From positions 1-47,655 of the forward strand of contig JAOTTP010000015.1 in assembly GCA_029864405.1 (NCBI GenBank): a DNA stretch of 47,655 nucleotides, given 5' to 3'. Below, in pieces: positions 7,266 to 33,441 of the stretch. The first letter of the stretch is position 1, and each line of letters begins with the position of its first letter. Below the pieces are notes generated by a model. The model was not told where the DNA came from, made no database searches, and saw only the letters and a program-made list of their open reading frames with translations. The DNA comes from Nitrospirota bacterium. GTDB taxonomy: Bacteria > Nitrospirota > Nitrospiria > Nitrospirales > UBA8639. Made by a program: the position numbers and the translations under genes.

Positions 7266-7290
7266 GTCGTTCCCAGGGTGATGAGGGTTC
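7266..7290 (-). promoter_or_regulatory. Candidate ECF promoter, GAACC-N17-GAC
   Basis: GAACC (7290-7286) and GAC (7268-7266) are separated by 17 bases, about 60 bp upstream of the ATG at 7207. It follows the terminator at 7396-7438, so the 5840-7207 gene can have its own transcript. The same layout precedes other genes of the cluster. Confidence 0.6.
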
Positions 7291-7395
7291 GATGGGCTTG
7301 GAATTTTTGAAAGCCCAGAGTAGTTTCAGTAAAGAGAGGGTTGTGAGTGAATGTCAAGGGAAATGCGGGTTTTGCAGGCAAAAACGCGGGGATCT

Positions 7396-7438
7396 AAAAA
7401 AAACCGGCCGGGCTCTTAATGAATAGCGCTCGGCCGGT
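7396..7438 (-). terminator. Rho-independent terminator after the 7613-8512 gene
   Basis: On the minus strand an 11-bp stem with one mismatch (7428-7438 with 7403-7413) is followed directly by eight T residues. It separates the 12.8-7.6 kb transcript from the 5840-7207 unit. Confidence 0.85.
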
Positions 7439-7612
7439 GGAATCGACCATGAAGGATTCACCAAGAAGAATATCTACATTCCTTGAGAGAGTTCTCCTTG
7501 CAGTCTGACTTCCCTAATAGTGCCAATCGGGCGGCTTCTAGGCATGACTACTTGCCGCTTGTTGGTGACTTCGGTCTGACTTTTCCTAAAAAGAATCGGC
7601 ACACACCTCACC

Positions 7613-8512
7613 TTATTTGTTGCCCACCTTCAACTTGTTCCCGCACACATTGACTGTGATTTTGGTCAGTTCATTTCGCATCAGTGAACCCAAAATATCG
7701 TTCATGGTGAAATTCACCGCTTCCCGGACGGCGTCTTTGGCGAGCTTATCCAGATCATTTTGTGTGTTGTAGATATTTAAGTCTCCGATGGACACACGGA
7801 ATTCATCGGGTTTCTCATTCCAGCTCAAACGGCAGAACCCCTGTTCATCGAAGGTTAAGGTTGGACGGGCTTTGTAGACAAATTTGACATCGGAGAGCCT
7901 GAATCCGAACCCGCCCGCATTCTCAAAGCATGGGCCTAATTGCCATTTGATCTTGATGCCATCATTCGAAATTCGACTGATGTTCTGTGTGACAGTCAAT
8001 CCCTGGAAATTAAGGGTGAATTGGGGGACATCCACCCGCAAGGCAAAGCCACTGGTGACCTTGAGCCGGACACACGACAGCCGAATCCGTTTGCCGGTAA
8101 TCGGATTCCTGGGGCCATACACATCCTTTTCATAGGTCTTATTGAGAAAGGTAAAATTGATGTCGAGCAACGAAGCATTTTTCACCGCGGCGGCCATCAT
8201 CTGTTGGCCCTGAGGGTGTTGAGCAAGTGGCATGGGAACATTCGCCGGAGTCGTTGGCGGTGGAGCAGGGTGTGAAGAGCTTTGACCGGACCCGGCAGAC
8301 GGTGCGAGAGGCCTGGGTTGGAGACGGGGAGGTATTGGAATGCCGCGGTCCTGAATGGCATCTTGAGCGGGTACCTCCTCTAGGATACCTTCACTGTTAG
8401 AGGGCTGCTCAAGTTGTGGGTGGTCTTCAGCCCAGGCCGGATTGGTCATGGTGATAAGAACAAAGAAAACGATTCCTAGCGTAAAGGCATGATGGAGAGG
8501 ATGGGATAACAT
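7613..8512 (-). CDS. Exported protein of unknown function with DRG motif
   Basis: 299 residues with a signal peptide (about 1-28) and AGGAGG upstream of the ATG. The mature N-terminus is Pro/Ser-rich and carries IQDRGIP. The folded part (about 110-295) alternates beta strands with a terminal amphipathic helix region (DLDKLAKDAVREAVNF) and contains four Cys. Overall shape resembles the middle of the neighbouring 10428-12065 product, where beta strands are again followed by a helix-rich end. A lipid-binding or lipoprotein-like fold is possible, but I do not recognise a family. It is the last gene before a terminator. Confidence 0.75.
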   Translation of the reverse strand: MLSHPLHHAFTLGIVFFVLITMTNPAWAEDHPQLEQPSNSEGILEEVPAQDAIQDRGIPIPPRLQPRPLAPSAGSGQSSSHPAPPPTTPANVPMPLAQHPQGQQMMAAAVKNASLLDINFTFLNKTYEKDVYGPRNPITGKRIRLSCVRLKVTSGFALRVDVPQFTLNFQGLTVTQNISRISNDGIKIKWQLGPCFENAGGFGFRLSDVKFVYKARPTLTFDEQGFCRLSWNEKPDEFRVSIGDLNIYNTQNDLDKLAKDAVREAVNFTMNDILGSLMRNELTKITVNVCGNKLKVGNK

Positions 8513-8633
8513 CTTGTGCCTCCTTTTGACTGGGGTAAGAGAGCGGTACGTTCACCTTCCGTCTTCAGGTTCGTAGAGTCTTACGGTCATGTATCAGATC
8601 TTTCGAGGCTCTTTTCCCCGGTTATCCTTCTAA

Positions 8634-10265
8634 CTACCCACAGGTCGGAATGAGCTTTGCAGATAGTTGGTCCAGGTTCAGTTGGCTTGGCCAGCCGTTT
8701 GGTAGATTGCCTTGGCGAAAACCTCTGTTGCGCAAGTCAGAAAGATAACGGTTTTTGAGATATTGCTGACTGAAGGATCCGAGACCGTTAAAGTACACCG
8801 ACGCGAGATGAGCGGGATCCAGGGCGAGTTCACCACTCGGTATTCGTGAAAGAACGATGCCATTCACCACCACTCGATCGTCATCATGATCATCCCAGGC
8901 CCAGGGAAGATGAGCGGCATTCTCCGAGCAGGTAACCGTTATGCCATTTCCACAGCCGCCTCCTTTATTGCCTTTAAAGGTTCCCCACTTATGATATATC
9001 TTTGTGGCAGAGCTGGACTGTTTGGCTTCAGCGAGTTGACCCTCCCACAGCCCGCCATTGGAAAAAATATCGACTAATCCGTAGTTGACGTGCCGGTCAT
9101 TGCCGTTTTTCGGAACCTGTCCGGCAGTGCGGGCGGGGTAATAAATGATTCCGTCTTCATTTGGTTTTCCGTGAAAATCCGACGTGTAGGGGAAGGCTTT
9201 TAACCCATGACCTTTGGCCTGCTGCACGGTCAGTGGACGCAAAGAGCCCTCGTATGGCTGCAACGTGAGCCGGCCATCGACGGTCTCTCGCCCGTTCCCC
9301 AAAGGACTGCCGGAAGGAGTAAACGAATAAAAATCGTTATGATAGACCGTGACCATTCCTTCGAGTTTGCCGAACCGTGAGCCATCCTTTCTCACGATGC
9401 TCAGCAACCCTTCCAGGTCATTTTCATGCTCCTGATCCGCGGCGCTATCGGTCCAGTCGCGCGGATGGAAGAAGCCATACACAATAAACCAATGAGTACA
9501 GGATTCGACCACGGAATAATAGGCATGCCCCATGAGCGGATATCTTTTGAGGTTTTCCCAATTATCAGTGGCTACCATGTTACCGTCATAGTCAAACCGC
9601 GTGATGTAATCGGCTTGGGCATTAGTATTATCGGTGTCTTGATAGTGGATCGGTGCATGGGAAAAGGCCAATTCAAAGTCAGAAGCATTGCTGGGTGCCG
9701 GAGGACGATGATCTCGAACGATGGGCGCAATGGTTCCTGGTGTGGGGGCCACTGGTGGTCGAGGAGGAGGAAGTACTTTCGGCTGCCCTCGATGATCTCG
9801 TACGACAGGAGCCTGCTGTGCGACCGCAACCTGGATCTGCGCTGTGGAGGCCAGAAGGTTTGAAAAACCTCTGGAGCGGGTTCCGGAGATTGAACCCGGC
9901 GCATCCAACGCCTGGCCGTTCTGCAGCAACAGGACGATATGCACCACATCGGGGTCTTCACCGCTAACCGTGACCGCCAGCGGTGCCTCGATCTCCTCGC
10001 TGTGGGTCGTTGCGTGCGCGTCGAGAAACAACGTGTCTCCCCCTTCCACGTTTAGCCGGAGCCGGGAGCCGACCAACGTCTCCACTTCGTACGTGCCGGC
10101 CTCTACCATGACATCGCTCCCGTCTGACTCCAGAAAATGGACAGATTGCTCTAAGGTGATAATGGGTGCCGCCTCGGCCACGGGGTTGAGTCCCATGCAA
10201 AGAACCCATGTGCCCAGTGCTAGGGCAAAGATACTTCCCAACGAACAACCAGATAGTCTATTCAT
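8634..10265 (-). CDS. Exported PGxY protein with large unrecognised C-terminal domain
   Basis: 543 residues: signal peptide (about 1-32), PGxY domain (about 35-135, with EQSVHF and AGTYEVE, ending SGTRSRGF), a Pro-rich linker with two VRDHR motifs, then a domain of about 340 residues. That domain is rich in His, Asp and Trp (APIHYQDTD, CTHWFIVYGFFHPRDW, AHLPWAWDDHDDDR). It looks catalytic or metal-binding, and is vaguely like bacterial Vps62-type proteins, but I cannot assign it. AGGAGG lies before the ATG. The VRDHR linker is shared with the upstream gene at 10428-12065. Confidence 0.8.
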   Translation of the reverse strand: MNRLSGCSLGSIFALALGTWVLCMGLNPVAEAAPIITLEQSVHFLESDGSDVMVEAGTYEVETLVGSRLRLNVEGGDTLFLDAHATTHSEEIEAPLAVTVSGEDPDVVHIVLLLQNGQALDAPGSISGTRSRGFSNLLASTAQIQVAVAQQAPVVRDHRGQPKVLPPPRPPVAPTPGTIAPIVRDHRPPAPSNASDFELAFSHAPIHYQDTDNTNAQADYITRFDYDGNMVATDNWENLKRYPLMGHAYYSVVESCTHWFIVYGFFHPRDWTDSAADQEHENDLEGLLSIVRKDGSRFGKLEGMVTVYHNDFYSFTPSGSPLGNGRETVDGRLTLQPYEGSLRPLTVQQAKGHGLKAFPYTSDFHGKPNEDGIIYYPARTAGQVPKNGNDRHVNYGLVDIFSNGGLWEGQLAEAKQSSSATKIYHKWGTFKGNKGGGCGNGITVTCSENAAHLPWAWDDHDDDRVVVNGIVLSRIPSGELALDPAHLASVYFNGLGSFSQQYLKNRYLSDLRNRGFRQGNLPNGWPSQLNLDQLSAKLIPTCG

Positions 10266-10427: not shown

Positions 10428-12065
10428 CTATGGCGCGGTTGGTGGTGGTGCTCCACCTTCCGGTGTCCCAGATTCCGTCTCCGGTTGTTCGCCTTCGACT
10501 CCGCGCTTCATGATGGTGCCTTGGATTGCCTGGTTGAAGAGGCCCGGCTTCACGGTTCCCGGGGTCGGGGAGGTCCCCAGACCTGGGTCGGCAGACAGGT
10601 TCCCGGGAGCGGTGATCTGAACGGTGAGCTCGTAGGCGTCGACCGGGACCTTGTATGGTTTGGCGCCCGTCTTTGGATTCGCCTGCACGATATAGAACTT
10701 TGGAATCCGGATTGTCCGCGTTCCGTTTCCATAATTCATAGTTTTGCCTAGGACGAGGAAGGCGCTGTCCGTGGGTTGGGTGTTCACGGCGACGTTTTGA
10801 ATGATATTGGCGACCAGGACCAGTGGCTCATTGTTTCCTGGAGGGTTCATCCGCAACGGCTGCGCATTCAGCGGAATCTGCTGCCCTTCTTGGATCGGAG
10901 AGAGCGGCAGGTAGAAATGCTGGGAGTTCGCATAGAATTCCAATGCCGGAGCTTCTGATGCCTGGTAGAGCACCGCTCCGTAAAGGTCGTGCGCCACGAG
11001 ACGCCGTAGGCCTACCAGGTTGACGCTGATTTGATTGAGGGCTGTGGTGCCTGTGACCACTGACCCAGGTGCCCGGTGATCCGAATAGACGACGAGATCG
11101 TCGGTTGGTGTATTGGCTGCCCCTTGATCTCTGCTCAGGGCATTACACGCGAAAGGGAGATTGGTCGAGCCATTCGTAATGGGAATTACGGAAATCTGCT
11201 GGCGCACTTGGCTATCGATAAAATCGGTCAGGTGGCCATTGAGAAAAAAATTCACCACTTGCTCAAGGGTCCCTCCTTGATTAGGATCCATGTATGGCCG
11301 ATCAATTTTGGCCACGAGCTTGAGGGCCCCTTTCCCCGTTTCCCACTTATCGCAGAACATCTGAATGGTAATGGAATGGGAGATCTTTCTCGTGACGGAA
11401 GTATTAAACCATTCGCCTTTGATATTCTTTTGCACATCGTAGACTTTATAACCGACCATGTAGGGGATAGCCACATAGCGTTGATTCGGACGATCGGTAT
11501 AGGTCGTCGCACTCATGTTGGGCCCATAAACGGTAAAGGATTCGACGAGGATTTTGGCGCGGATGCTTGTTTGCTGCGCCATATTGGCATTGACCGCCGC
11601 AATCGCGGTGTCGACTTGACCACGCACACCAATATTTTTCCCGTTCTTATCTCTGAGATTGGTGATTGTGAGATGGATGGGAAGTTCTTGCACCGGCGCT
11701 ACTGGATCGGGCGGACCGATCGGAGGGGGTGCGCCTTGAGCTGCGGCCACGGGTGCTGAAGACGTTGTCCCTCCTGGCTGTTGGCGATGATCACGCACGA
11801 TGGGTGCGGGAGTGACTTGGCTAGGAGCAGTCGTTTTGGGAGGAGCAGAAAATTTAGGCTGTCCTCGATGATCCCGGCTCATCCCGCGTTCTACGACTCC
11901 TCCCTGATCGGCGGAGACAGTTGGTTCTTCCTGGATGGTTTGAGGAGGGTCCGGGGTGTCTCCTGCCTGTGTTTGAGAGAAGGCGGTCCCTCCCGTCAAC
12001 ATCAATAGTGCGAGGCTCATTGCGTATAACATGCATCTGAAACGTTTGCTCTGTGGGCTGTTCAT
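10428..12065 (-). CDS. Exported protein with VRDHR linker and RGVEGE C-terminal tail
   Basis: 545 residues: a signal peptide (about 1-33), VVERGM near the mature N-terminus, then a linker with RDHRGQP and VRDHRQQP. Two beta-rich regions follow (about 125-310 and 340-500), and the C-terminus carries MKRGVEGEQP and a Pro/Glu end. The tail is the same as in two Cys-rich neighbours. The first beta region with its helical end (EQVVNFFLNGHLTDFIDSQV) resembles the 7613-8512 product. No PGxY domain is present. It probably shares a transcript with the 12200-12742 gene above it and the 8634-10265 gene below. The function is unknown. Confidence 0.78.
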   Translation of the reverse strand: MNSPQSKRFRCMLYAMSLALLMLTGGTAFSQTQAGDTPDPPQTIQEEPTVSADQGGVVERGMSRDHRGQPKFSAPPKTTAPSQVTPAPIVRDHRQQPGGTTSSAPVAAAQGAPPPIGPPDPVAPVQELPIHLTITNLRDKNGKNIGVRGQVDTAIAAVNANMAQQTSIRAKILVESFTVYGPNMSATTYTDRPNQRYVAIPYMVGYKVYDVQKNIKGEWFNTSVTRKISHSITIQMFCDKWETGKGALKLVAKIDRPYMDPNQGGTLEQVVNFFLNGHLTDFIDSQVRQQISVIPITNGSTNLPFACNALSRDQGAANTPTDDLVVYSDHRAPGSVVTGTTALNQISVNLVGLRRLVAHDLYGAVLYQASEAPALEFYANSQHFYLPLSPIQEGQQIPLNAQPLRMNPPGNNEPLVLVANIIQNVAVNTQPTDSAFLVLGKTMNYGNGTRTIRIPKFYIVQANPKTGAKPYKVPVDAYELTVQITAPGNLSADPGLGTSPTPGTVKPGLFNQAIQGTIMKRGVEGEQPETESGTPEGGAPPPTAP

Positions 12066-12143: not shown

Positions 12144-12325
12144 GTGCCAGCCCCCATCATGAGTTTTCTGACTGGTTCATTATTTCTCCTTGCGAAACCC
12201 TACTGAGATTTTGGCGCACTCGATTGCTCAACCGATTCAGGCTTTGCCGGAGCTGTTTCTGATGAATTCTCAGGCGCGGTTTCCGCAGGCTGCTCGCCTT
12301 CGATGCCGCGCCGCATAATGGCTCC
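12144..12325. repeat. Direct repeat copy A (3' end of tail gene plus downstream DNA)
   Basis: This segment and 14218-14387 are clearly similar at nucleotide level. The similarity spans the tail-coding 3' ends of two genes, their stop codons and about 60 bp beyond. The non-coding part shares CCAGCCCCCATCATGAG and TGACTGGTTCATTATTT. Conservation of non-coding sequence points to a fairly recent segment duplication. Confidence 0.8.
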
Positions 12326-12742
12326 ACCTTGAAACCCCGGTGCGTACCGGCGGGGTTGTTTCGGCTGACCTTGAATCAGCGGCGCCATTTGCCCTGGGGT
12401 GATGTGGTTCTGGGGTAGTTGGCTTTGCGCGGCAGCTGTGCAGTCCCTCACATTCGAATAGGAGGTTTTTTCGAAACATTTTCCAATATTGGGCCCGCTC
12501 GTCTCGCACTCGTCGTATTTACAGTAGTCGGCCGTGCACTTCATAGCCTTGCCGGTTCCCTCTTCCTTCCCGTTCACAGTGGTCGTCCCCGATGACTTGC
12601 AGGATTGGCCACCAGGGCCCTTCGGCACGGCCAACACATTGGAAGGGGCAAGCAGGGTTAGAAGCCCCAGGAACAGAAATACTGCCGAAATACCGAACGA
12701 GAGGTGTGAGTATGGCCGGGTCATTTGTTTTGAAATGGACAT
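12200..12742 (-). CDS. Small exported Cys-rich protein with RRGIEGE tail
   Basis: 180 residues with a good AGGAGG site, a signal peptide (about 1-38), and a short Cys-rich domain (about 45-105) with seven Cys, including CTADYCKYDEC. The C-terminal segment carries IMRRGIEGEQP and ends in an Ala/Glu/Ser/Pro-rich stretch. The tail is nearly identical to that of the 14274-14807 product, although the Cys-rich parts differ. Disulfide formation in the periplasm would suit the DsbA-type protein at 15112. An ECF-like promoter lies 40 bp upstream. The function is unknown. Confidence 0.8.
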   Translation of the reverse strand: MSISKQMTRPYSHLSFGISAVFLFLGLLTLLAPSNVLAVPKGPGGQSCKSSGTTTVNGKEEGTGKAMKCTADYCKYDECETSGPNIGKCFEKTSYSNVRDCTAAAQSQLPQNHITPGQMAPLIQGQPKQPRRYAPGFQGGAIMRRGIEGEQPAETAPENSSETAPAKPESVEQSSAPKSQ

Positions 12743-12781: not shown

Positions 12782-12808
12782 GTCGCGAGTGAATGTGTAA
12801 AGGTTCAA
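12782..12808 (-). promoter_or_regulatory. Candidate ECF promoter, extended form
   Basis: TTGAACCTTT (12808-12799) is followed after exactly 14 bases by GAC (12784-12782) on the minus strand, 40 bp before the ATG of the 12200-12742 gene. Identical bases and spacing occur at 18778-18804, 31863-31889 and 33415-33441. Confidence 0.75.
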
Positions 12809-12820
12809 GGGTTCACCATG

Positions 12821-13387
12821 CTACCGCGCTCCCGATGGTTGCTTCGGAACGAATGGGACCTGCTGCTTTCTGGTGTTCGATCGTTTCGGCGGCGGGGGAG
12901 GAGGAGGAGGAGGAGGTGGGGGCGGGTTCCCGAGGTCCCCTGCCTCCTCATCCATCAACTGGGCTTTGCCCATTTGAGCAGTTATAAGTAAGCGGAGTCC
13001 CTCGCGTGATGTGACGCCACTCGGTGATCCCACCACGTCGATGGCTTTTCCTTCCGGTAGCAGGAGCACGAGATGATGCTCGTTTTCGTTCACTGGTACG
13101 GAGAGTGCTACAGGTACCTTTACAGGGCCAGCGTGACCTTCTATGACGATGGGAGTTTTGCCATCCACCGGGGTGAGCTTGAGTCCCGACTTTCCTGCTA
13201 ATTCAACCTGATATTCCCCCGGCCCGATGACAATAGCTTGGCCTTTCACGTCGGTGAAATGGACCGCCTGAGTCAACGACACGGTGGGTACTGCTTTCGC
13301 ATCCCCAGCCAATGCGGGTGCCCCCATCAGCATGGCGAATCCAACGAGTATCAAATTGATCATGGCGATTCGTGTTCTTATGTCCAT
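12821..13387 (-). CDS. Short exported PGxY-domain protein with polyproline tail
   Basis: 188 residues from the ATG at 13385-13387, which is preceded by AAGGGTGG and begins a signal peptide (about 1-28). The rest is essentially one PGxY domain (about 36-135, TQAVHF, GPGEYQVEL, LLLPEGKAIDV, ending SGVTSREG), followed by a run of 14 or so prolines and a basic end. The tail may project the domain or bind a partner. The S-R-G ending is altered to S-R-E-G. It has its own ECF-like site upstream. Confidence 0.82.
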   Translation of the reverse strand: MDIRTRIAMINLILVGFAMLMGAPALAGDAKAVPTVSLTQAVHFTDVKGQAIVIGPGEYQVELAGKSGLKLTPVDGKTPIVIEGHAGPVKVPVALSVPVNENEHHLVLLLPEGKAIDVVGSPSGVTSREGLRLLITAQMGKAQLMDEEAGDLGNPPPPPPPPPPPPPKRSNTRKQQVPFVPKQPSGAR

Positions 13388-13520: not shown

Positions 13521-13545
13521 GTCGTTCCCTCGCCCCTCTGGGTTC
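13521..13545 (-). promoter_or_regulatory. Candidate ECF promoter, GAACC-N17-GAC
   Basis: GAACC (13545-13541) and GAC (13523-13521) lie 17 bases apart in the gap between the 13581-13973 gene and the 12821-13387 gene, about 135 bp before the ATG of the latter. Bases before GAC (GGGAAC) match the site at 7266. Confidence 0.6.
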
Positions 13546-13580: not shown

Positions 13581-13973
13581 CTATCGTATGAGCGCCGCTT
13601 TCTTGGTGCACGTGCACTCCGCCGATCCGGATGTGAAGGTGCACTCCAACGTTCCTGAGCATTTCCCGGACCCTTCCAGATCCTTGCAATCTACGGAGCC
13701 CCGGCATCCACAAAGTGTGGATCCAGGTGGACAACTGTAAGGCAGCGGGCCTGTGGGCCTGAAAGTTTTACTCTGAGGGGCTTTGGGAGCTGGTGTGATG
13801 ACACCGTCTCGAACGCCACGCTCCTGCACCCCCGCAGCATCCTCCGATGAACTCGTACCAGTATTTTCCTCGGAGTACACAATCATGGGACTGAGGCACG
13901 TCAATATTCCCACGCTGATGATCATCAGTAGGAAGAGAGTATTTTTGTTTGGCCATTGTGCGGGTCGTTCCAT
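13581..13973 (-). CDS. Small exported Cys-rich protein with ERG motif
   Basis: 130 residues from the ATG at 13971-13973 (AAGGAGG upstream); longer frames run through the remnant gene before it. It has a signal peptide (about 1-37), then VQERGV, a linker, and a C-terminal domain of about 45 residues with eight Cys (CGCRGSVDCKDLEGSGKC and CTFTSGSAECTC). The Cys spacing is close to that of the 14274-14807 product and the 13984-14250 remnant. It lacks the RRGIEGE tail. Probably disulfide-bonded in the periplasm; the function is unknown. Confidence 0.78.
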   Translation of the reverse strand: MERPAQWPNKNTLFLLMIISVGILTCLSPMIVYSEENTGTSSSEDAAGVQERGVRDGVITPAPKAPQSKTFRPTGPLPYSCPPGSTLCGCRGSVDCKDLEGSGKCSGTLECTFTSGSAECTCTKKAALIR

Positions 13974-13983
13974 GAAGTCCTCC

Positions 13984-14250
13984 TTATGCGAAGTAGTGTT
14001 TATGCTGATTACCGTGTGAGGGGGGGGCTTGCATGGGCGCTCGCGGAGCTTTCCTACCAGTCTTGGGTTGCACTGTACTGGCCCACTCGCAGGAACAATT
14101 ATTGCCAGCCAGATCGCACTCCATAGTCGTAATGCAGCCACCTTTCGGTTGTTTAATACAACAGGCTCCTCTGTTTTTTAGCCGGGAACAGTCGACGAAG
14201 CCTGGACATGAACATTTGCGCCAGCCCCCATCATGAGTGTTCTGACTGGT
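13984..14250 (-). pseudogene. Remnant of a Cys-rich exported protein gene
   Basis: An open frame without a start codon encodes a Cys-rich domain in the same pattern as its neighbours (KCSCPGFVDCSRLKNRGACC, then TTMECDLAGNNCSCEW) and ends 10 bases before the next gene's ATG. No signal peptide or tail can be found in this frame. A stop codon closes it upstream at 14251-14253. It is best read as a 5'-truncated paralogue left by duplication. Confidence 0.7.
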
Positions 14251-14387
14251 TCATTATTTTGCCGTGCGAAACCTTACTGAGATTTCTGCTCACCTGAATG
14301 CTCAACGGATTCAGGCTGTGCCGGAGCTGATTCTGATGAATTCTCAGGCGCAGGTTGCTCACCCTCGATGCCTCTTCTCATAATAGC
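14218..14387. repeat. Direct repeat copy B
   Basis: Counterpart of 12144-12325. It covers the 3' end of the 14274-14807 gene and the upstream edge of the Cys-rich remnant. The repeat boundary beyond the stop lies close to where the remnant's Cys-rich frame begins. Confidence 0.8.
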
Positions 14388-14807
14388 CCCGCTTCTTGGA
14401 GCCATCGGTGTTCTATTAAATTTCGTTGGTGGCCTCTTCAACGATACAGTGCATGTACAGGGACTCCCTGTAAGTTCACAGCTCAAGAGTATGGTGCATC
14501 CTTCGCGTATCCCTCCCTTACAGCAGTCACTGCTCTTTTTCATTTTGTCGCAATCCACGAAATTAGTGCATGTACACTTTTTGGGACCATCGATGGGGGT
14601 GTCGCATGTATATCCGAGACCACCTCCCCCCCCGCTGATCGCTCGTTCCACCACCTCCCCGGTATCTCCCTTTTCGATAACCTGTTTTTCCTTCGGTTGG
14701 GTCGGCTCTTCGGCGTGTACCATCAGCATGCCGGTCAAGTTTCCACTCAGCATCAAAATAAAAATTCCAGGCAACACCACCTTCAAACGTCGGGTTAGTG
14801 ATTTCAT
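14274..14807 (-). CDS. Small exported Cys-rich protein with RRGIEGE tail
   Basis: 177 residues: signal peptide (about 1-32), then VVERAI and a Gly run, a domain with ten Cys (about 70-125, including CTCTNFVDCDKM, DCCKGG and SPCTCTV), a linker, and a tail IMRRGIEGEQP with an acidic Ser/Pro end. A GGAG site precedes the ATG. It is a paralogue of the 12200-12742, 13581-13973 and 17975-18469 products. The dsbA-like gene lies directly upstream on the same strand, with about 300 bp between them holding an ECF-like promoter. Confidence 0.8.
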   Translation of the reverse strand: MKSLTRRLKVVLPGIFILMLSGNLTGMLMVHAEEPTQPKEKQVIEKGDTGEVVERAISGGGGGLGYTCDTPIDGPKKCTCTNFVDCDKMKKSSDCCKGGIREGCTILLSCELTGSPCTCTVSLKRPPTKFNRTPMAPRSGAIMRRGIEGEQPAPENSSESAPAQPESVEHSGEQKSQ

Positions 14808-14969: not shown

Positions 14970-14994
14970 GTCGTTGGTCCTGCCCAAAAGGTTC
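14970..14994 (-). promoter_or_regulatory. Candidate ECF promoter, GAACC-N17-GAC
   Basis: GAACC (14994-14990) and GAC (14972-14970), 17 bases apart, in the 304-bp gap 14808-15111. The site would give the 14274-14807 gene a leader of about 155 bases. A 60-codon TTG-started frame also lies in this gap but is not convincing. Confidence 0.6.
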
Positions 14995-15927: not shown

Positions 15928-16602
15928 CTACTGTTTCTTTGCACAGATTCGGCATCTCCGGAGTAACGATTGTCGAGCCTTCGCATCAAGTTGGATACGG
16001 CCCTGTTCCAGTGTCACCCGCCCGTAAGAAGGGGCCACGTTCGAATGAAGTCTGGACATTGCCGATGAGGAGACGGCCTCCTGTTCATTCAAATCGGCAT
16101 CCGTGGCCACTCGACCTTGCTGCATGACAATTCCCGTATATCGCCGAGTTGGGATGAACAAAGACCTCGTCGGATTGCCTGCACCTCGCGAAAGGACTTC
16201 CTGACCCAGACTTTCCGCGTCTAATCCCTGGCCATCGGGAAGCAGGAGTATCAGGTGCACGTGCCCCTGCTTTCCGGCTTCTTCTATGAGAAACGGGTAA
16301 GGAACTGTCAAGGATTCCGTGTGGATCAGGATTGTGGAATGCAGATTCTGTGTTTCCCCTGTCGAAGTAGAAATTAGTTGAAGCGTGTCTGGTCCTTTTG
16401 CAGCAACCAAATAGGTCCCGGATGGAATGTTCGAAGGCAGACCATCGCTGTTGAGGAACCGTACCGGTTGATCTATTTGGAGAACGGGTAATTTCCCTGA
16501 AGGTTTCGTCGGAACCGGCGATTCGGAAGATGCCAGCACGGCACCGGCCATGAGCAAAAGGTAGAGCGTGAGAGTGATTGATATGGGCCGACTGTGTCTC
16601 AT
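15928..16602 (-). CDS. Exported PGxY protein with baseplate-like QQGRV motif
   Basis: 224 residues: a signal peptide (about 1-25), a PGxY domain (about 40-140, DQPVRF, PSGTYLV, LLLPDGQGLDA, ending EVLSRG), then a 70-residue C-terminal part. This contains TRRYTGIVMQQGRVATDAD and NEQ. That motif resembles, from memory, the conserved start of DUF6519-type proteins linked to phage or contractile injection baseplates. A second, weaker copy follows (LEQGRIQLDAK), and the protein ends with two Cys in a basic stretch. The gene ends 40 bp before dsbA. The function is unknown. Confidence 0.78.
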   Translation of the reverse strand: MRHSRPISITLTLYLLLMAGAVLASSESPVPTKPSGKLPVLQIDQPVRFLNSDGLPSNIPSGTYLVAAKGPDTLQLISTSTGETQNLHSTILIHTESLTVPYPFLIEEAGKQGHVHLILLLPDGQGLDAESLGQEVLSRGAGNPTRSLFIPTRRYTGIVMQQGRVATDADLNEQEAVSSSAMSRLHSNVAPSYGRVTLEQGRIQLDAKARQSLLRRCRICAKKQ

Positions 16603-18469: not shown

Positions 18470-18549
18470 AAATCCCTCCTGTTGGTTGTGGATTGAGTTG
18501 CTGTGTCTGTCTTCCTCATTTCTCATTTCCCGTGCGTTTGATCAATTCC

Positions 18550-18777: not shown

Positions 18778-18804
18778 GTCGAAAAAGATATATAAAAGGT
18801 TCAA
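18778..18804 (-). promoter_or_regulatory. Candidate ECF promoter, extended form
   Basis: TTGAACCTTT (18804-18795), 14 bases, GAC (18780-18778). It stands upstream of the dsbA remnant and the 17975-18469 gene. The spacer is AT-rich (TATATATC), unlike the GC-rich spacers at other sites, so the match is unlikely to be copied with a larger duplicated block. Confidence 0.7.
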
Positions 18805-21197: not shown

Positions 21198-21222
21198 GTC
21201 GAATGAAAAATGAAAATGGTTC
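21198..21222 (-). promoter_or_regulatory. Candidate ECF promoter, GAACC-N17-GAC
   Basis: GAACC (21222-21218) and GAC (21200-21198) with 17 bases between, about 53 bp before the ATG of the 19325-21145 gene. The remaining gap to opgH (21223-21476) shows nothing else. Confidence 0.65.
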
Positions 21223-27130: not shown

Positions 27131-28477
27131 TTACTGGTGTTGGAACCAGCGGGTGATGCGCAGGTCTTCCCCGGCGGTTTTGACGAAGTAGGTGGTGGGA
27201 AGTAATTCCTGTTGCTGGTTTTGTGAAGTTTGGAAGGCAAAGGGAAATGAACCTGGATGTGCCCCGGAATACCCGTTGGGAATAATGGCGGGTTCGCTGA
27301 CGGCTTGCGGTTTTTCCGCCGGGTTTCGTTCGCGGCCGGTAATGGTCGTCAGAATCTGTTCAATATCCTGGCGCGGTGCGCGGGAGGCCACCACAAAGAC
27401 GGTTTCAATGCCCTTGAATTGATCCAGGCTGAACCAATTGGTTCCTTCCGGCAGAATGTGTTGTTCCCCGGCTTTGACCGGGTTGGCGAACGGGCTGGAA
27501 GCCGAGGGGAATAGACCCTGCGCCCAGGCCGAGCCGTCCACTGTGATCACATAGATGTAGCAATCGGTATTCGCGCGGAACATGACACGAAATTTATCAC
27601 CGGACTGCGGATTGCCTCTCCCATCCAGAAGAATGTCCCCGTCCTTGATGGGCAGGTAGGATTGCACGCCATTCACCAGATTTTTTTTGACCAGCAACAC
27701 ATCTAGGCTGATCGGGGCGGCGGCGGGGTTTGCCGTTTCGGGCTGAGCCGTCGGGTGACCGAGTGAACCTTCGGGTTTATTTGGATAGGCGGGTGCGGAT
27801 GTCATTCCTGCATGGCCATAAGGCGTCGGAGAGAATTGCCCTTGCTGGTTCTCCGGGTAGGAGGTATTCGGATACGGTTGGCCTTGGTCGGGATATTGAG
27901 GCTGATTCGGATAGGGCGCCTGATTCGAGTACGGGTTCTGATTTGGATAGGCATTGGGCTGTTGGCCTTGCTGCGGATATTGATTGTGAGGATAAGAGGA
28001 ATATCCGGGGACCGAGGCTTGTTGATTGGGATAGACGGGATTGTTCGAATTGAGATTTTCTTGTTGCCCTTGGTTCGGGTACTGGTTATTCGGGTAGGGA
28101 ATATTCCCGCTGTATGGCGGCTGCTGATTTTGATAGGGATCATAGGCTTGTTGAGAGGAGTCCTGCGAGGTGGGATATCCTTGTGCCGTCTGGTAATCCT
28201 GATTGGGATACCCGGTTTGTTGATACCCGCCAGTTTGTCCGTACGGATTGGCAATGATGCCTTGCGGCATCATCGGATTGGTCCGCTGTTGAAGCGACAC
28301 CATCAGGTTTTCCATGTTTTGTTCATGGGTGTCCCCGTAGTTGTTGAACGCTGTTCTCAAGAGGTTGGCCCCGAACTCTACGAGTGGGGGAATTAAAAAC
28401 GGGAGCGCCATACAACCGCTGAAGAGAAGGCTGATGACCAGGAGCAGCCAGGGACGTGGTGTGGGGGATTTAGACAT
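27131..28477 (-). CDS. DUF4384 lipoprotein with Tyr/Pro/Asn/Gln-rich linker
   Basis: 448 residues. A lipoprotein signal ends at LLFSGC. A helical segment (about 35-65, LLRTAFNNYGDTHEQNMENL) is followed by a low-complexity linker of about 160 residues dominated by YPNQ units. The C-terminal part is DUF4384 (about 285-390: LVNGVQSYLPIKDGDILLDG, then GDKFRVMFRANTDCYIYV and NWFSLDQFKGIETVFVV). It is the third of three tandem paralogues. DUF4384 is a beta domain of unknown function often seen next to proteases and kinases. The linker may span the periplasm. Confidence 0.88.
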   Translation of the reverse strand: MSKSPTPRPWLLLVISLLFSGCMALPFLIPPLVEFGANLLRTAFNNYGDTHEQNMENLMVSLQQRTNPMMPQGIIANPYGQTGGYQQTGYPNQDYQTAQGYPTSQDSSQQAYDPYQNQQPPYSGNIPYPNNQYPNQGQQENLNSNNPVYPNQQASVPGYSSYPHNQYPQQGQQPNAYPNQNPYSNQAPYPNQPQYPDQGQPYPNTSYPENQQGQFSPTPYGHAGMTSAPAYPNKPEGSLGHPTAQPETANPAAAPISLDVLLVKKNLVNGVQSYLPIKDGDILLDGRGNPQSGDKFRVMFRANTDCYIYVITVDGSAWAQGLFPSASSPFANPVKAGEQHILPEGTNWFSLDQFKGIETVFVVASRAPRQDIEQILTTITGRERNPAEKPQAVSEPAIIPNGYSGAHPGSFPFAFQTSQNQQQELLPTTYFVKTAGEDLRITRWFQHQ

Positions 28478-28526: not shown

Positions 28527-30095
28527 TTACTCGTGGCGGAACCAGCGGGTGAGCCGAAGATCCTGCCCGGCCTTTTGCGCCAGATAACTTGTGGGAATAA
28601 TGGTGTGATCCTGTCCGGACCCTTCGGAGAGGCCGAACGGTTTGGCGCTCGGCCGGGTTCCTCCGACCCCATAGGGCACCATGGCCACCTTTGTCACCTG
28701 TTGGGGACTTTCAGATGCCGGACGCTCATGTCCGGTGATGCTTTGAAGGATTTCCTCGATATCCTGCCGTTTGTCTTGCGACACGACGAAGAAGATGGTT
28801 TCAATCCCCTTGAATTGATCCAGGCTAAACCAGTTGTTGCCTTCGGGAAGAACATATTGCTCACCCGCTTTCACCGGATTGGCCAAGGGGGAAGTGGGCG
28901 GTGGAAAGATGCCTTGCGCCCAGCCTGAACCGTCAATGGCGATGACGTACACATGGCCATCGCTGTTGGGCCGGAACATGATCCGGAATTTGTCACCCGC
29001 CGCCGCATTCCCGCGCCCGTCTCGCAAGAGGTCGCCGTCTTGAATCGGCAGGACCACCGGGGCTCCGTTCCGTATGGTTTTCTTTACCATGACGACATCC
29101 AACCCGATCGGAGTTCCGGTCTCTTGGGTTTGGATTCCTGTCTCCGTTCCTATCTGCGTATTGGGGTCTTGCGGATACGTGTGTTGGGCATAAGGATCCT
29201 GCTCTGGATAGCCCGAAGCATTTGGATCTTGAGGATATCCTTGTTGAGCGTAGGGATCAGATGGATAGCCTTGAGCATTTGGATCTGAGGGATATGCTTG
29301 TTGGCCATAGGGGTCGTAGCCCTGGCCCTGAGCATTTTGATCATTGGTATAGGGCTGTCCTGGTTGCGCCACATTATGAGGATCGTAGCCGTAGGGTTGG
29401 TTTTGTGGATAGCTGGTCTGGTAGGCCTGCGGGTTTATCTGTTGGTCGCAAGGGGTTGAGGGAAAGGTGGCGTGAGGAAGCTGACCCGGTACTCCACGCG
29501 ATTGGACATCATTTGGATAATTCGGATCAAATCCGTCTTGCGGGACCCCACCATCGAATGGTTGGGATTCGCCAAACCCCGTGCTGGAATCTCCGGGAAA
29601 TTGCCCAGGGTGAAACCCTTGTTGGTCTCCAATGGGGAGCCCGGTATTGGGATCAAACTGAATAGGCAGGCCGGTGTTCGGGTCGGTTTGAATGGGAAGA
29701 CCCGTATAGGGATCGACCTGTACCGGAAGGCCCGTGTTGGGATCAATAGGTTGTCCTTGCTGGAATCCAGGGTCGACGAATTCCTGGTCGGATGTCTTCT
29801 TCTTTTTTTTCTTTTTCGGTGTGACGAGTTTTGTGAGGAGCGTGTTCAACTTGCCTGTGTACTGTTGGCTGTAATTCGCGGCAGCGGTTGCCAACAACGT
29901 GCCGCCGATATTGGCCAACGGATTGAGAATGGCCTGTTTTGCAAACGACGCCATCGGACTTTCGGTAAATTGCGCGCCGCCGGGTTGGCAGGGAATGTTT
30001 TGAGAAAGTCCGCCTTGTCCATTGGGGGTGGCGCAGGAGACCAGCATGGCTGAGACCAGGACGGTGGCGATGATGGATCGGGTCTGTGTCTTCAT
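28527..30095 (-). CDS. DUF4384 lipoprotein with repeat-rich linker and SRG motif
   Basis: 522 residues from the ATG at 30093-30095. The lipobox is MLVSC. A helix similar to the neighbouring paralogues (LLATAAANYSQQYTGKLNTLL) is followed by a run of Lys (PKKKKKKKT) and Thr-Gly-Leu-Pro repeats (DPNTGLPIQ units). VQSRGVP and a Tyr-Pro-rich region (YPQDPNA units) come next, and DUF4384 lies at about 375-480. Intergenic distance to the gene before it is 14 bp, so the three genes form an operon. This is the only one of the three with an R-G motif of the kind seen in the exported cluster. Confidence 0.88.
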   Translation of the reverse strand: MKTQTRSIIATVLVSAMLVSCATPNGQGGLSQNIPCQPGGAQFTESPMASFAKQAILNPLANIGGTLLATAAANYSQQYTGKLNTLLTKLVTPKKKKKKKTSDQEFVDPGFQQGQPIDPNTGLPVQVDPYTGLPIQTDPNTGLPIQFDPNTGLPIGDQQGFHPGQFPGDSSTGFGESQPFDGGVPQDGFDPNYPNDVQSRGVPGQLPHATFPSTPCDQQINPQAYQTSYPQNQPYGYDPHNVAQPGQPYTNDQNAQGQGYDPYGQQAYPSDPNAQGYPSDPYAQQGYPQDPNASGYPEQDPYAQHTYPQDPNTQIGTETGIQTQETGTPIGLDVVMVKKTIRNGAPVVLPIQDGDLLRDGRGNAAAGDKFRIMFRPNSDGHVYVIAIDGSGWAQGIFPPPTSPLANPVKAGEQYVLPEGNNWFSLDQFKGIETIFFVVSQDKRQDIEEILQSITGHERPASESPQQVTKVAMVPYGVGGTRPSAKPFGLSEGSGQDHTIIPTSYLAQKAGQDLRLTRWFRHE

Positions 30096-30109: not shown

Positions 30110-31747
30110 CTATTCGTGACGGAACCATCGAGTGACTCGTAAAGCCTCACCGGCTTTTTGAGTGAAATAGGTGGTAGGCATCAAGCCCTGGTCTGATGAG
30201 CTGTCCTGGCCAAGGGTAAATGGCGTAGTGCTTTGTTGGCGACGATGGAAACCTGCCGGAATGATCGGCGCTTCCGTGACTTGTTGGGGTGTGGCTGCGG
30301 GATGGCGTTCCCGTCCGCCAATACTCGCCAGGATATCCTCGATATCTTGGCGTTTGTCCGGTGAGGCCACAAAGAAGACTGTTTCAATTCCTTTGAATTG
30401 ATCCAAACTGAACCAATTATTGTTGTCGGGGATGACGTATTGTTGTCCCTTCTTGACGGGATTGGCGAAGGGCGACGTGAGCGAGGGAAAGATTCCCTGT
30501 GCCCAGGCGGATCCGTCAATGGCAATGACATAGACATAGCAATCCGTATTCGCCCGGAACATGATCCGGAATTTGTCACCGGCCTTCGCGTTCCCACGTC
30601 CGTCTTTCAGGATATCACCATCTTGAATTGGCAAAAGTGTTTCGGCTCCATTGACGAAGGTTTTTTTGACGAGGGCGACGTCAAGTTGGAGCCCTTCGAC
30701 GAGCTGAATCGCGGGTGGCGTTGGTGCTTGCACGCTCGGGTTGGAAGGATACTGAGGGGTTGCGGGTTGAGCATATGCCGGTTGTTGCAGCGGAGGTGGA
30801 GAGGTGACCTGGGGTTGATACGGGTCATACCCGCCTTGCGGCGAGGGTGGAGCCGGCTGCCCAGGGTATCCCCCTCCACCATATTGATAGGAGGGGTCTT
30901 GTCCTCCTTGTTGCGGATAAGGGGACGCTGGATAACCGGAGCTGCCAATATTGGGATTGTTTGGCGGGTACCCTCCCTGTGCCTGACCGTATTGATTGGG
31001 ATTGCCAGACGGATAATTGCCATAACCGGCATCGGCGGGGTATCCCTGGTTTAGATTTTGGCCATAGGGTTGGCCTTGGGGATACCCCTGGTTTGGATAT
31101 TGGCCATAGCCCCCACCTTGTTGCCCTGTCTGTGGATATGCGCCGTAATTGGGATCGGTTGGATAGGCTCCCTGATTTTGCCCATAGCCCCCACCCGAGG
31201 GATAGCCCTGGTTGGAATTGTAAGGGTCATAGGAGCCTTGACCCTGCGAATAGGCATTGGGATCGCCAGAGGGATACCCGCCATAATTGGGATCGCTCGG
31301 ATAGCTGGATCCAGGGGTTTGCCCACCATACCCACCCTGCTGCATTCCCTGATCATATCCCGGATTTTGTCCGTACTGATTCCCTCCATATTGGTTGCCA
31401 TAGTTAGGGTCGGTTGTGCCATAGGGAGCGTTCGGGTCATAAGGATTCTGACCACCGACTGCATTGGGGTTATAGGGGTTTCCTGGTGTGATTCCCTGAA
31501 TAAACGGTTGATTACCCACTCCCGGTTGACGCAGGGACTGGAGTAATTGGCCTAACTGTTGTTCATATTTATTGGTGTAATTGATCGCCGCTTTCGCCAG
31601 GAGATCTTTTCCAAAGTCGAGAGCTTTATCAAGAAAGGCGGCATGTCCGGACCCTGGGAACATTAGTAATAGACTCAAGACAGCCGTTACCGCCCCCCTT
31701 GTTACGCCATGGGGACCCAAGAAAACCTGTCGGTTCGATGGTGGCAT
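30110..31747 (-). CDS. Exported DUF4384 protein with Gly/Tyr/Gln-rich linker
   Basis: 545 residues from the ATG at 31745-31747 (a TTG four codons upstream is possible). A Sec signal without a lipobox Cys, then the helix LLAKAAINYTNKYEQQLGQLL, a linker of about 250 residues rich in Gly, Tyr, Gln, Asn and Pro (NQGYPQG and YGQ units), and a C-terminal DUF4384 (about 385-490, FRIMFRANTDCYVYV). First gene of the operon; an ECF-like promoter lies about 115 bp upstream. The linker resembles prion-like or adhesive low-complexity sequence, so surface display or phase behaviour is possible (inference). Confidence 0.87.
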   Translation of the reverse strand: MPPSNRQVFLGPHGVTRGAVTAVLSLLLMFPGSGHAAFLDKALDFGKDLLAKAAINYTNKYEQQLGQLLQSLRQPGVGNQPFIQGITPGNPYNPNAVGGQNPYDPNAPYGTTDPNYGNQYGGNQYGQNPGYDQGMQQGGYGGQTPGSSYPSDPNYGGYPSGDPNAYSQGQGSYDPYNSNQGYPSGGGYGQNQGAYPTDPNYGAYPQTGQQGGGYGQYPNQGYPQGQPYGQNLNQGYPADAGYGNYPSGNPNQYGQAQGGYPPNNPNIGSSGYPASPYPQQGGQDPSYQYGGGGYPGQPAPPSPQGGYDPYQPQVTSPPPLQQPAYAQPATPQYPSNPSVQAPTPPAIQLVEGLQLDVALVKKTFVNGAETLLPIQDGDILKDGRGNAKAGDKFRIMFRANTDCYVYVIAIDGSAWAQGIFPSLTSPFANPVKKGQQYVIPDNNNWFSLDQFKGIETVFFVASPDKRQDIEDILASIGGRERHPAATPQQVTEAPIIPAGFHRRQQSTTPFTLGQDSSSDQGLMPTTYFTQKAGEALRVTRWFRHE

Positions 31748-31862: not shown

Positions 31863-31889
31863 GTCGAGAGGAACACCAGAAAGGTTCAA
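31863..31889 (-). promoter_or_regulatory. Candidate ECF promoter for the DUF4384 operon
   Basis: TTGAACCTTT (31889-31880), 14 bases, GAC (31865-31863). It overlaps the last codons of the anti-sigma gene and lies about 115 bp before the first DUF4384 gene. Identical fixed bases and spacing precede the metacaspase on the opposite strand. Confidence 0.8.
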
Positions 31890-32578
31890 GGGTGCAGGTA
31901 CGCTGCTGTGTTGATGAGGTCTGTATGGGCGTTGAGAGCGGATAGGATGGATTCAGAGGAATCGGTCTCTTTTGGTTCAAATCCGAGCGTATACAAGCCT
32001 TCAGATGTTGGGCCGCTTATTATTTGCCCGCCTAGGCCCTGCACCAGGCGACGGATATGGATTTCTTGGGCCGTTTCGACGAATGTGACCTGAATCTTGA
32101 TGAGGGGAATTACTGGAGTTCCCTGTGGAACGCCTCGTTCAATGATTGGACCGGAACCAGGGCCAACCTGCCCATCCGGCCCTCCGAGGACTGCAAGCAG
32201 GATGACCGCCTGTCCGACAATCAATAGGCTGGCAAGGGCCGGAGCCCATCGGACCTCGAATAGGGAACGAACGCTTCTTTCAATTGATTCCAACCAGGAG
32301 GTCTCGGTTCCTATGCGAATGTCCTTTGGCGCCGTTTGGGTTTCCTGGTGAATACGGCTCATGACCTTGGCAAAAGCCGCTGGTGAAGGCCCTGGACGTT
32401 TTTCGATGGCGGTTTTGATTGCGGTGTGCATGATCTTTATCTCCTGAAGCTCCTGCTGGCAGGCAGCGCATGATTGCAAATGATGGTCCACCTCTTGGCG
32501 CTCGTCGGGAGTCAGCGTGTGGCTCACATAGCCCGGGAGGAGGGTGGCTTCGGTATGTATCGGTTGTTCAGGTTCCAT
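31886..32578 (-). CDS. ZAS-type anti-sigma factor with periplasmic ERG motif
   Basis: 230 residues. The N-terminal zinc-binding anti-sigma motif is H33-x3-C37-x2-C40. A cytoplasmic linker precedes one membrane helix (about 111-133), after which comes a Gly/Pro-rich stalk with PIIERGVPQG (Arg148-Gly149). A C-terminal domain of about 75 residues ends the protein (VTFVETAQEIHIRRLVQGLG), of a kind also found in subtilase propeptide-like regions (weak). It should hold the co-encoded ECF sigma factor at the membrane until cut. The gene starts 5 bases after the sigma stop. The R-G site lies about 15 residues outside the membrane, where site-1 cleavage typically occurs. Confidence 0.9.
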   Translation of the reverse strand: MEPEQPIHTEATLLPGYVSHTLTPDERQEVDHHLQSCAACQQELQEIKIMHTAIKTAIEKRPGPSPAAFAKVMSRIHQETQTAPKDIRIGTETSWLESIERSVRSLFEVRWAPALASLLIVGQAVILLAVLGGPDGQVGPGSGPIIERGVPQGTPVIPLIKIQVTFVETAQEIHIRRLVQGLGGQIISGPTSEGLYTLGFEPKETDSSESILSALNAHTDLINTAAYLHP

Positions 32579-32583
32579 CTCGT

Positions 32584-33168
32584 TTACATAATCTCCTTCG
32601 TCACTCCCTGGTGCTGGAGATTTTTTTTGAGCTGCTGCTTAGCATAGTACACACGGGTTTTCACAGTATTGACCGGAATGTGTAAGAGCTCCGCAATTTC
32701 GGGATACGACAATTCTTCGTAAAAGGCCATGTGGAGAATTTCCCGGTGATCAGGTGATAACGTGGTGATGGCTTGATTGGTCAGCGCGGCCATCCGGTTT
32801 TGTTGGGCGTCTTCCAAGGGGTTATGTCCTGATTCGGCTGTTTCCACGATGTCGTCCAGTGGGGTCCCACCCCGTTGCTGACTGGTGATCTTGCGCAGGG
32901 CGTCCACGGCTTTATGATGAGCAATCCCAAAAATCCAGGTGGAGACTTTGGATTGTCCTTGAAAGGTCTGGAGGCTTTTCCATATGGCCAGCATCACTTC
33001 CACTAAAGTTTCCTCAGCTAATGTCGCCTCATTCATGATCGTCATGAGGTACTGAAAGACTCGTTTCTCATAGCGCTGATAAAGGGCGGCAAAGGCTTCC
33101 TCATTGTTCGGGACACAGGCTTTAAGCAAGTCCGAATCCGTGAGGTCTTGCCAGTTGGTCGAGCTCAT
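32584..33168 (-). CDS. ECF sigma-70 factor
   Basis: 194 residues with sigma region 2 (about 20-90: AFAALYQRYEKRVFQYL, FQGQSKVSTWIFGIAHHKA) and region 4 (about 125-180: LSPDHREILHMAFYEELSYP, then IAELLHIPVNTVKTRV). No region 1 or 3, as usual for group 4 factors. It directs RNA polymerase to special promoters in response to an envelope signal relayed by the anti-sigma factor downstream. A GAACC-N17-GAC site overlaps the start codon, suggesting self-regulation. A downstream TTG at codon 14 is a possible alternative start if transcription begins inside the frame. Confidence 0.95.
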   Translation of the reverse strand: MSSTNWQDLTDSDLLKACVPNNEEAFAALYQRYEKRVFQYLMTIMNEATLAEETLVEVMLAIWKSLQTFQGQSKVSTWIFGIAHHKAVDALRKITSQQRGGTPLDDIVETAESGHNPLEDAQQNRMAALTNQAITTLSPDHREILHMAFYEELSYPEIAELLHIPVNTVKTRVYYAKQQLKKNLQHQGVTKEIM

Positions 33169-33184
33169 GGGGCTAGCGGTTCAA
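33158..33184 (-). promoter_or_regulatory. ECF-like site overlapping the sigma gene start
   Basis: TTGAACC (33184-33178), 17 bases, GAC (33160-33158). The start codon (33168-33166) lies between the two boxes, so a transcript from here would begin inside the frame. It could be a self-regulating site, a promoter for a shorter form, or chance. Confidence 0.4.
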
Positions 33185-33414
33185 TTTCAGAGGGAAATCC
33201 AGCTGGTACGCTCCCCTGGGGGAGGCAGTAAGCGACTATGGCTGTGTCAGTTGGCTCTCTAGCATAGGGGAGAAGGGTTGAGAAGACAATAGGGGAAAGC
33301 CTAATGGATGACCTCCAAAGTTTTTCAGCTCGGACGCTGATCATGCGCCCCTCTATTTAGACGAGAGGCATTCAGCATGGGTGAATGGCCAGTGAGTGTG
33401 CACTTACATCTCGC

Positions 33415-33441
33415 TTGAACCTTTTTAGGGAAGGCGCAGAC
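33415..33441 (+). promoter_or_regulatory. Candidate ECF promoter for the metacaspase gene
   Basis: TTGAACCTTT (33415-33424), 14 bases, GAC (33439-33441), 26 bp before the ATG at 33467. It is the only plus-strand member of the set. The surrounding gap (33169-33466) is the divergent control region shared with the sigma gene. Confidence 0.8.

Follow-up and report, generated by a model that had tools for sequence, protein, structure and literature searches.

A two-block promoter motif, its ECF sigma factor and an exported metacaspase: a proposed control and processing module in Nitrospirales

What joins a sigma factor, an exported metacaspase and a long row of exported proteins on one bacterial contig? 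The stretch in question, JAOTTP010000015.1 of assembly GCA_029864405.1 (Nitrospirota; Nitrospirales), is a whole contig (C51) of 47,655 nucleotides from a 2.89-Mb genome that is 66% complete; we refer to the entire stretch as the window and to its genome as G000 (G labels denote genomes, L labels stretches or loci). An earlier note, made from the letters of the window alone, had proposed that one motif, GAACC-N17-GAC, ties the exported cluster, a DUF4384 operon and the metacaspase to the local extracytoplasmic function (ECF) sigma factor. The sites are very probably promoters of that sigma factor, as their distribution across genomes suggests, and the best explanation of the locus as a whole, to which we assign a probability of about 0.5, is a sigma regulon whose metacaspase cuts itself, the anti-sigma factor and exported proteins. 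The three central genes were as follows:

32584..33168, minus strand: ECF sigma factor with regions 2 and 4 (Pfam Sigma70_r2 and r4_2; orthologs)
31886..32578, minus strand: membrane anti-sigma factor with zf-HC2, one transmembrane helix and a periplasmic domain (Pfam zf-HC2; transmembrane and linker analysis)
33527..35827, plus strand: exported metacaspase (Peptidase C14) with a C-terminal DUF4384, the start probably at 33527 and not at 33467 (Pfam; alignments)

The sigma factor scored above the cut-offs of both Pfam domains and of NCBIfam sigma70-ECF, and its nearest named relatives were from Nitrospirales and Nitrospirota metagenome bins (90 and 82% identity for L036 and L031, respectively). 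The adjoining gene encodes zf-HC2 and a transmembrane helix, the features of a class I zinc anti-sigma factor. All nine sites named in the earlier note were present, and four of them (12782-12808, 18778-18804, 31863-31889 and 33415-33441) share the longer form TTGAACCTTT-N14-GAC. The excess over chance also held, with 10 exact matches to GAACC-N17-GAC in the window and a mean of 1.89 (largest, 5) in 100 shuffled sequences; the tenth match, at 7000-7024 on the minus strand, had been omitted and sits within the coding region of 5840-7207. CGAC follows N16 in nine of the ten matches, the metacaspase site reading AGAC instead. The window sites have only two blocks in common, at a spacing of 15 or 16, the spacer itself being variable, and share no other sequence. 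The nine sites are listed below:

7266..7290, minus strand: promoter-like site of 5840-7207 (exact match)
12782..12806, minus strand: promoter-like site of 12200-12742 (exact match)
13521..13545, minus strand: promoter-like site of 12821-13387 (exact match)
14970..14994, minus strand: promoter-like site of 14274-14807 (exact match)
18778..18802, minus strand: promoter-like site upstream of 17975-18526 (exact match)
21198..21222, minus strand: promoter-like site of 19325-21145 (exact match)
31863..31887, minus strand: promoter-like site of the DUF4384 operon (exact match)
33158..33182, minus strand: promoter-like site over the sigma start codon (TGAAC..ATG..CGAC in eight loci compared)
33417..33441, plus strand: promoter-like site with AGAC, before the metacaspase gene (kept in six of six loci compared)

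Eight of these lie 40-252 bp upstream of called or likely starts, as the earlier note had described: 59 bp (7207), 40 (12742), 134 (13387), 163 (14807), 252 (18526), 53 (21145), 200 (31663) and 86 (33527; 26 if the start is 33467). The site at 31863-31887 also covers the final two bases of the anti-sigma gene. The ninth site, 33158-33182, overlaps the start codon of the sigma gene and may serve to repress sigma or to feed the anti-sigma gene; it keeps CGAC-NN-AC in L031, L033, L034 and L036 despite differing codons in the orthologs. At the metacaspase promoter (33415-33470, plus strand), AGAC replaced CGAC in six of six loci compared, a conserved AAC-A-AAGGTTGAG downstream of the site forms an inverted repeat with the -35 element AACCTT, and parts of the leader before the likely ATG (33527) were conserved too.

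Enrichment was assessed through pattern searches and sampled stretches. In the source genome, GAACC-N16-CGAC had 38 matches and the reversed pattern 33; therefore, not every such match counts as a promoter. Because 9 of the 38 fell in the window contig, which holds 1.65% of the bases (binomial 1e-8), the excess is local and not genome-wide. We examined 21 of the 29 matches that lie elsewhere in the genome; 10 of the 21 were within a called gene. The motif was then compared with sigma identity at 50 loci, namely the window and L031-L085 after exclusion of L035 (its genome is that of L058), L056 (the window itself), L046 (contig end too near) and L049, L052 and L055 (partial matches). The 400 bp preceding the sigma start, both strands counted, contained it in 14 of 16 orthologs at ≥46% identity (window included), which thus have a two-block promoter with a GAAC-type -35 element at their own locus, in 5 of 21 loci at 35-46% identity and in none of 13 below 35%; the reversed and scrambled patterns were found at none of the 50 loci. 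Among the 14 close orthologs, the site faced sigma in six and only the divergent neighbour in eight, and all five motifs of the middle group faced sigma, four of them in Acidobacteria, Troglogloeales, Acetothermia and Eremiobacterota bins.

The ten genomes with a sigma ortholog (E<1e-50, a threshold set after the list had been seen) contained 121 matches to TGAACC-N15/16-CGAC-NNA (reversed control, 40), and thirteen genomes without it contained 59 (reversed control, 37). For TGAACCTT-N13/14-CGAC, the ten genomes gave 57 matches (control, 8; rows summed by hand), and the other 235 gave at most 5 per genome, the maximum being in G200. In relatives, the stringent matches clustered within tens of kilobases. 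We refer to such clusters as islands, sampled as the window and 20 stretches of relatives (414 kb) that were picked for holding promoter matches; genes were called with our own script, and "exported" denotes export predicted by a crude hydropathy rule. Here 58 of 67 stringent matches were intergenic and no more than 350 bp ahead of a called start, and 2 lay inside genes although the coding share was 0.85, whereas control stretches of 400 kb from four of the same genomes held a single stringent match, inside a gene. Products behind 44 of the 58 upstream matches looked exported, as did 202 of 349 island gene products overall compared with 86 of 361 in the controls, and the first genes behind the motif (n=61) included 13 matching DUF4384 and 10 matching C14. 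The earlier note had named equal density of the motif inside genes as a reason to abandon the promoter reading. In the islands this does not hold, given that 58 of 67 matches precede starts and 2 are intragenic in DNA that is 85% coding; the loosest genome-wide pattern is ambiguous on this point. The motif recurred in related genomes, upstream of close sigma orthologs as well as in their islands, and the assignment to the local ECF factor, offered only as an inference, gained support from the way the motif tracks sigma identity.

Two other readings of the sites were weighed. G000 encodes two further ECF relatives (three matches in the sigma search), and one of these might use the motif; we regard this as very improbable, since the motif follows the present sigma factor across genomes, including its distant orthologs in the four bins outside the close group, and is missing upstream of all 13 ECF genes below 35% identity. 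Slightly less probable still is that the sites are operators, mobile repeats or chance matches. The inverted repeat flanking the metacaspase site would suit an operator or a repeat, but the fixed two-block spacing of 15 or 16, the variable spacer and the placement before starts speak against this, and a mobile-repeat origin was rejected because the window sites share the two blocks alone.

If the sigma factor controls these genes, what would the metacaspase contribute? The proposed answer rests on one arginine motif, which recurs at two candidate cut sites of the central genes:

32129..32146, minus strand: codons of IIERGV, a candidate cut site with Arg at P1 just past the anti-sigma transmembrane helix (linker comparison)
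34139..34156, plus strand: codons of VTTRAI in the p20/p10 linker of the metacaspase, a candidate self-processing site (linker comparison)

Directly after the transmembrane helix, [VI]xxR[GS][VIL] occurred in 17 of 17 metacaspase-linked anti-sigma factors (IIERGV in the window) and in the linker of none of 12 homologs without C14 nearby, one of which (L066) ends before the linker and seven of which are known with only about 1.5 kb of flank; six of the 12 read TLSGP, TLTTQ or similar there. A regular-expression match at the end of the L038 transmembrane helix was not counted, L035 was dropped, and the ECF loci L071, L072, L074-L076, L078-L085 and others lay outside the comparison. One of the 17 belongs to a diverged, distant second module of G242 (L170, G242:C4), in which a C14 protein lacking DUF4384 is encoded next to an ECF-like gene; its anti-sigma factor carries VTERSL.

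The metacaspase has a signal peptide, and its gene is divergent from the sigma operon. His118, Cys175, Asp62 and Asp173 were invariant among the six sequences aligned and align with yeast metacaspase-1, where His118 and Cys175 correspond to the His-Cys dyad of p20 and the two aspartates to a presumed pocket for a basic residue. Between the Cys loop and p10, [VI]-x-T-R-[AGQ] was found in the module metacaspases (13 of 13, the full motif in 9), and neither form was present in the 10 non-module metacaspases examined; several orthologs carry a similar Arg motif more than once in the C-terminal half. A PADLOC scan of eight window proteins gave only a weak "caspase" match, and the window metacaspase scored below the cut-off of NCBIfam EACC1-caspase (66 vs 140 bits). 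A second caspase type of the regulon was noted behind the same motif: exported proteins of some 1035 residues that combine WD40 repeats with a caspase-like domain at the C-terminus (L121:261-3374, L123:3985-7098 and L127:10021-13116).

The third place of the arginine motif is the exported proteins themselves. The cluster at 5840-21145 consists largely of exported proteins without a Pfam family, many of which share an N-terminal domain that Pfam missed and that we call HF. The relevant genes, with those of the DUF4384 operon, were as follows:

30110..31663, minus strand: DUF4384 protein, first operon gene behind 31863-31887 (Pfam)
28527..30095, minus strand: DUF4384 lipoprotein with VQSRGV (Pfam; motif scan)
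27131..28411, minus strand: DUF4384 protein (Pfam)
19325..21145, minus strand: exported protein with two HF domains (HF profile)
17975..18526, minus strand: exported protein with VQDRAV (motif scan)
17004..17630, minus strand: probably exported HF-domain protein (HF profile)
15928..16602, minus strand: probably exported HF-domain protein (HF profile)
14274..14807, minus strand: small exported protein rich in Cys, carrying VVERAI towards its N-terminus and IMRRGI towards its C-terminus (motif scan)
13581..14141, minus strand: small exported protein with VQERGV (motif scan)
12821..13387, minus strand: exported HF-domain protein (HF profile)
12200..12742, minus strand: small exported protein rich in Cys, carrying IMRRGI towards its C-terminus (motif scan)
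10428..12065, minus strand: exported protein with VVERGM and a C-terminal IMKRGV (motif scan)
8634..10265, minus strand: exported HF-domain protein (HF profile)
7613..8512, minus strand: probably exported protein with IQDRGI (motif scan)
5840..7207, minus strand: exported HF-domain protein with IQSRGL just past the domain (HF profile; predicted structure)
197..1375, minus strand: exported protein with a diverged HF, lacking the terminal Arg, and DUF928 (Pfam; HF profile)

Searched with an HF profile, 427 island and close-relative proteins yielded 46 domain hits, one of them from a window gene that had been called twice, and 361 control proteins yielded none. The predicted fold is all-beta and confident, with a mean predicted local distance difference test (pLDDT) score of 91; compared with PDB, it had no match below E 0.001 (best, 0.023), and no function was therefore assigned from it. 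We consider HF a new domain family. After removal of the duplicate row, the domains mostly end in GS-SGI-[SPQT]-R-[GAS], two DUF928-type copies being without the Arg; in 22 aligned domains of the 46, this Arg is one of four invariant residues, and it falls beyond the confident fold, in a low-confidence tail. Island proteins without HF often carry E-V-Q-[SE]-R-G-V about 25-75 residues from the start, and others IM[RKS]RG[IV]EG-E near the end. The strict pattern [VI]x[SDE]R[GA][LIVM] was present in 48 of 217 exported island proteins and in 4 of 183 controls (Fisher, 3e-10), the latter being drawn from the same genomes (1 of 86 exported proteins) and from four genomes that lack the module (3 of 97). 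When the window and G206 were excluded, the count was 40 of 185 (2e-9). Seven of eight relatives had the strict motif, and G189 had none in three proteins. The first exported set (n=202, with three window open reading frames added by hand; the 217-protein set is without these) held 53 strict sites, whereas 200 shuffles gave a mean of 3.2 (largest, 9), Lys in place of Arg gave 1 and the reversed pattern gave 7. Two likely further pieces of the regulon were observed in G000: a 6.8-kb contig (G000:C133, L028-L030) with three promoter-motif matches and HF domains, and G000:C79 (L017) with an exported protein carrying VRSRGI behind a match.

The exported metacaspase, the HF domain and the motif [VI]-x-x-R-[GAS]-[VIL] travel together. 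Among 245 genomes of the phylum, HF was found in 11, namely all ten with the sigma ortholog and G242, which has a single diverged copy. Metacaspase orthologs (E<1e-140) were found in the same ten and in G212, where a 4.2-kb contig holds the metacaspase, a piece of sigma and the anti-sigma gene, and no HF was found. The Fisher test gave 6e-17 for the co-occurrence of either with sigma, phylogeny being ignored, and non-carriers also occur in four of the six genera with carriers (g1, g6, g7 and g9).

We infer the following course of events, including each cleavage, their order, the direction of control, the signal and the benefit, from this distribution and from the conserved sites. The zf-HC2 membrane anti-sigma factor (31886-32578) would hold sigma inactive. 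The metacaspase would activate itself by a cut in the p20/p10 linker and then cut the anti-sigma factor just outside the membrane, where site-1 cleavage usually occurs; sigma would thereby be freed, the membrane step following by a site-2 protease, as is known from other systems. Sigma would then transcribe the DUF4384 operon, the divergent metacaspase gene, probably its own operon and the exported-protein island; the loop would be self-reinforcing because sigma makes more protease and more of its substrates. From part of the exported regulon, the metacaspase would split short propeptides, HF domains or C-terminal tails. The parts differ in strength. That the metacaspase cuts after the Arg of [VI]-x-x-R-[GAS]-[VIL] seems somewhat probable, the separation of propeptides, HF domains or tails has only slightly better than even odds, and the release of sigma by a cut of the anti-sigma factor is a tentative proposal a little short of even.

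Several observations weigh against this account. Usual ECF spacing would place the transcript start from the site over the sigma start codon inside the sigma gene, no conserved start codon was found downstream of that site among close orthologs, and in G137 and G206 the motif is absent from the 400 bp before sigma and lies where the anti-sigma gene ends. The metacaspase structure model is poor (pLDDT 46), too poor for judging the pocket, 4 of 13 module linkers, with G212 (AKTRAI) and G242 (SRPRGV), deviate from the full motif, and P1' is Ser in 6 of 17 metacaspase-linked anti-sigma factors. The strict motif is missing from most exported island proteins (169 of 217), and the counts are raised by relatedness among the proteins, which form 83 similarity clusters, 20 of them with a strict site. 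Island proteins that our rule did not class as exported were enriched as well (11 of 147; 12 sites, 2.8 vs 0.7 per 10,000 residues), perhaps partly due to missed signal peptides. In addition, the Arg motif was first noticed in these same proteins, and the sole stretch that was new once it had been fixed was L174 of G206, L175 overlapping the already seen L035. In L174, 1 of 11 exported proteins had the strict motif (3.1 per 10,000 residues; controls, 0.4 and 0.9), and 4 of 11 had the wider [VI]xxR[GAS][LIVM] (12.5 per 10,000 residues; control exported proteins, 3.4), which is weak support. A DNA pattern for E[VIM]xERG, run over the 245 genomes, failed to separate module genomes (2 to 9 matches) from unrelated ones (up to 9 in G119 and 10 in G022) and was discarded as too noisy.

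The links between the metacaspase and the Arg motif are all by association, and some of the motifs stand near the C-terminus before an acidic tail, like sorting tags. The ECF regulon might thus be real and the motif be cut by another envelope protease, or be a sorting or binding tag, with the metacaspase merely co-regulated; this is a serious alternative, to which we give roughly one chance in three. It accounts less readily for the similar motif in the metacaspase's own p20/p10 linker, repeated in the C-terminal half of several orthologs, and the P1 Arg agrees with the specificity of the family. We consider it unlikely that cleavage by the protease is confined to exported proteins, with the anti-sigma factor answering to another signal and its Arg being incidental: the Ser at P1' in six anti-sigma factors, a residue outside the strict exported-protein pattern, fits this idea, whereas all 17 keep Val or Ile at P4 and Arg at P1 in an otherwise variable linker, and half of the homologs without C14 nearby have TLSGP, TLTTQ or similar at that position.

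How far is the proposed cleavage of the anti-sigma factor by the metacaspase anticipated by known systems? To our knowledge, few natural substrates of bacterial metacaspases have been described, and known site-1 proteases of anti-sigma proteolysis belong to families other than C14; no report of a C14 peptidase in that role was found among the literature matches listed. As in the parts of the literature consulted on DegS-RseA-RpoE, RsiV and RsiP, the module combines an ECF sigma factor, an anti-sigma factor with one transmembrane helix and a proposed first cut outside the membrane. Metacaspases are described as cleaving after Arg or Lys (PMC3501461). The nearest precedent is Csx29-Csx30-CASP-sigma of type III-E CRISPR (clustered regularly interspaced short palindromic repeats), in which the target of a caspase-like protease is the inhibitor of an ECF sigma factor (PMC10028731). 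There, Csx29 is a CHAT protease activated by target RNA, an alanine scan found no essential Csx30 residue, Csx30 cleavage frees sigma in the authors' model, and sigma motif matches lie in its own locus (PMC10028731). Both systems pair a caspase-like protease with an ECF sigma inhibitor as the target, here a proposed one; unlike that system as described, the protease here is a C14 peptidase with a signal peptide, the anti-sigma factor is a zf-HC2 membrane protein and the regulon proteins share the motif. The CHAT protease, Cas7-11 and Csx30 that characterise it were not recognised, no Cas protein being among the 30 Pfam-scanned or 8 PADLOC-scanned open reading frames of the window.

Genes for metacaspases and sigma-70 factors were reported in 2012 as neighbours in Myxococcus, Anaeromyxobacter, Haliangium, Sorangium, Ralstonia and Fibrobacter; section 13 of that paper describes neither a promoter motif nor an anti-sigma site or a substrate set (PMC3501461). 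EACC2-caspase neighbourhoods likewise couple a caspase to an ECF sigma factor, and the authors propose stimulus-triggered activation of the autopeptidase; the HF domain, the zf-HC2 linker site and the exported regulon do not feature in the accessible part of that description (PMC8195603). The titles and abstract beginnings listed, mostly of non-subscription literature, contained no report of an exported metacaspase cutting an anti-sigma factor or of this regulon.

Other genes of the window were also noted. Interspersed in or adjoining the exported cluster are genes for a DsbA-like protein (15112-15888), a PAN protein (16672-17034), a glycosyltransferase (21477-23600) and MdoG (23845-25389). 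In 15928-16602 (minus strand), the region past HF resembles DUF6519 weakly, with a score under the cut-off. Short open reading frames at 41199-42237 (plus strand) are presumably pieces of an IS3-type transposase.

Overall, the analysis defines a regulon, a new domain family and a likely promoter for a so far uncharacterised clade of ECF factors in Nitrospirota. In its broadest form, which we put forward as a possibility somewhat below even odds, a bacterial caspase would act as both envelope convertase and switch, cutting itself (at VxTR), the anti-sigma factor (between IIER and G) and dozens of exported proproteins, in a module inherited as a unit, patchily, across Nitrospirales. If this is true, the metacaspase would come with a predicted list of substrates sharing a common cut site, and a caspase would gain a defined regulatory job, that of opening the brake on a sigma factor.

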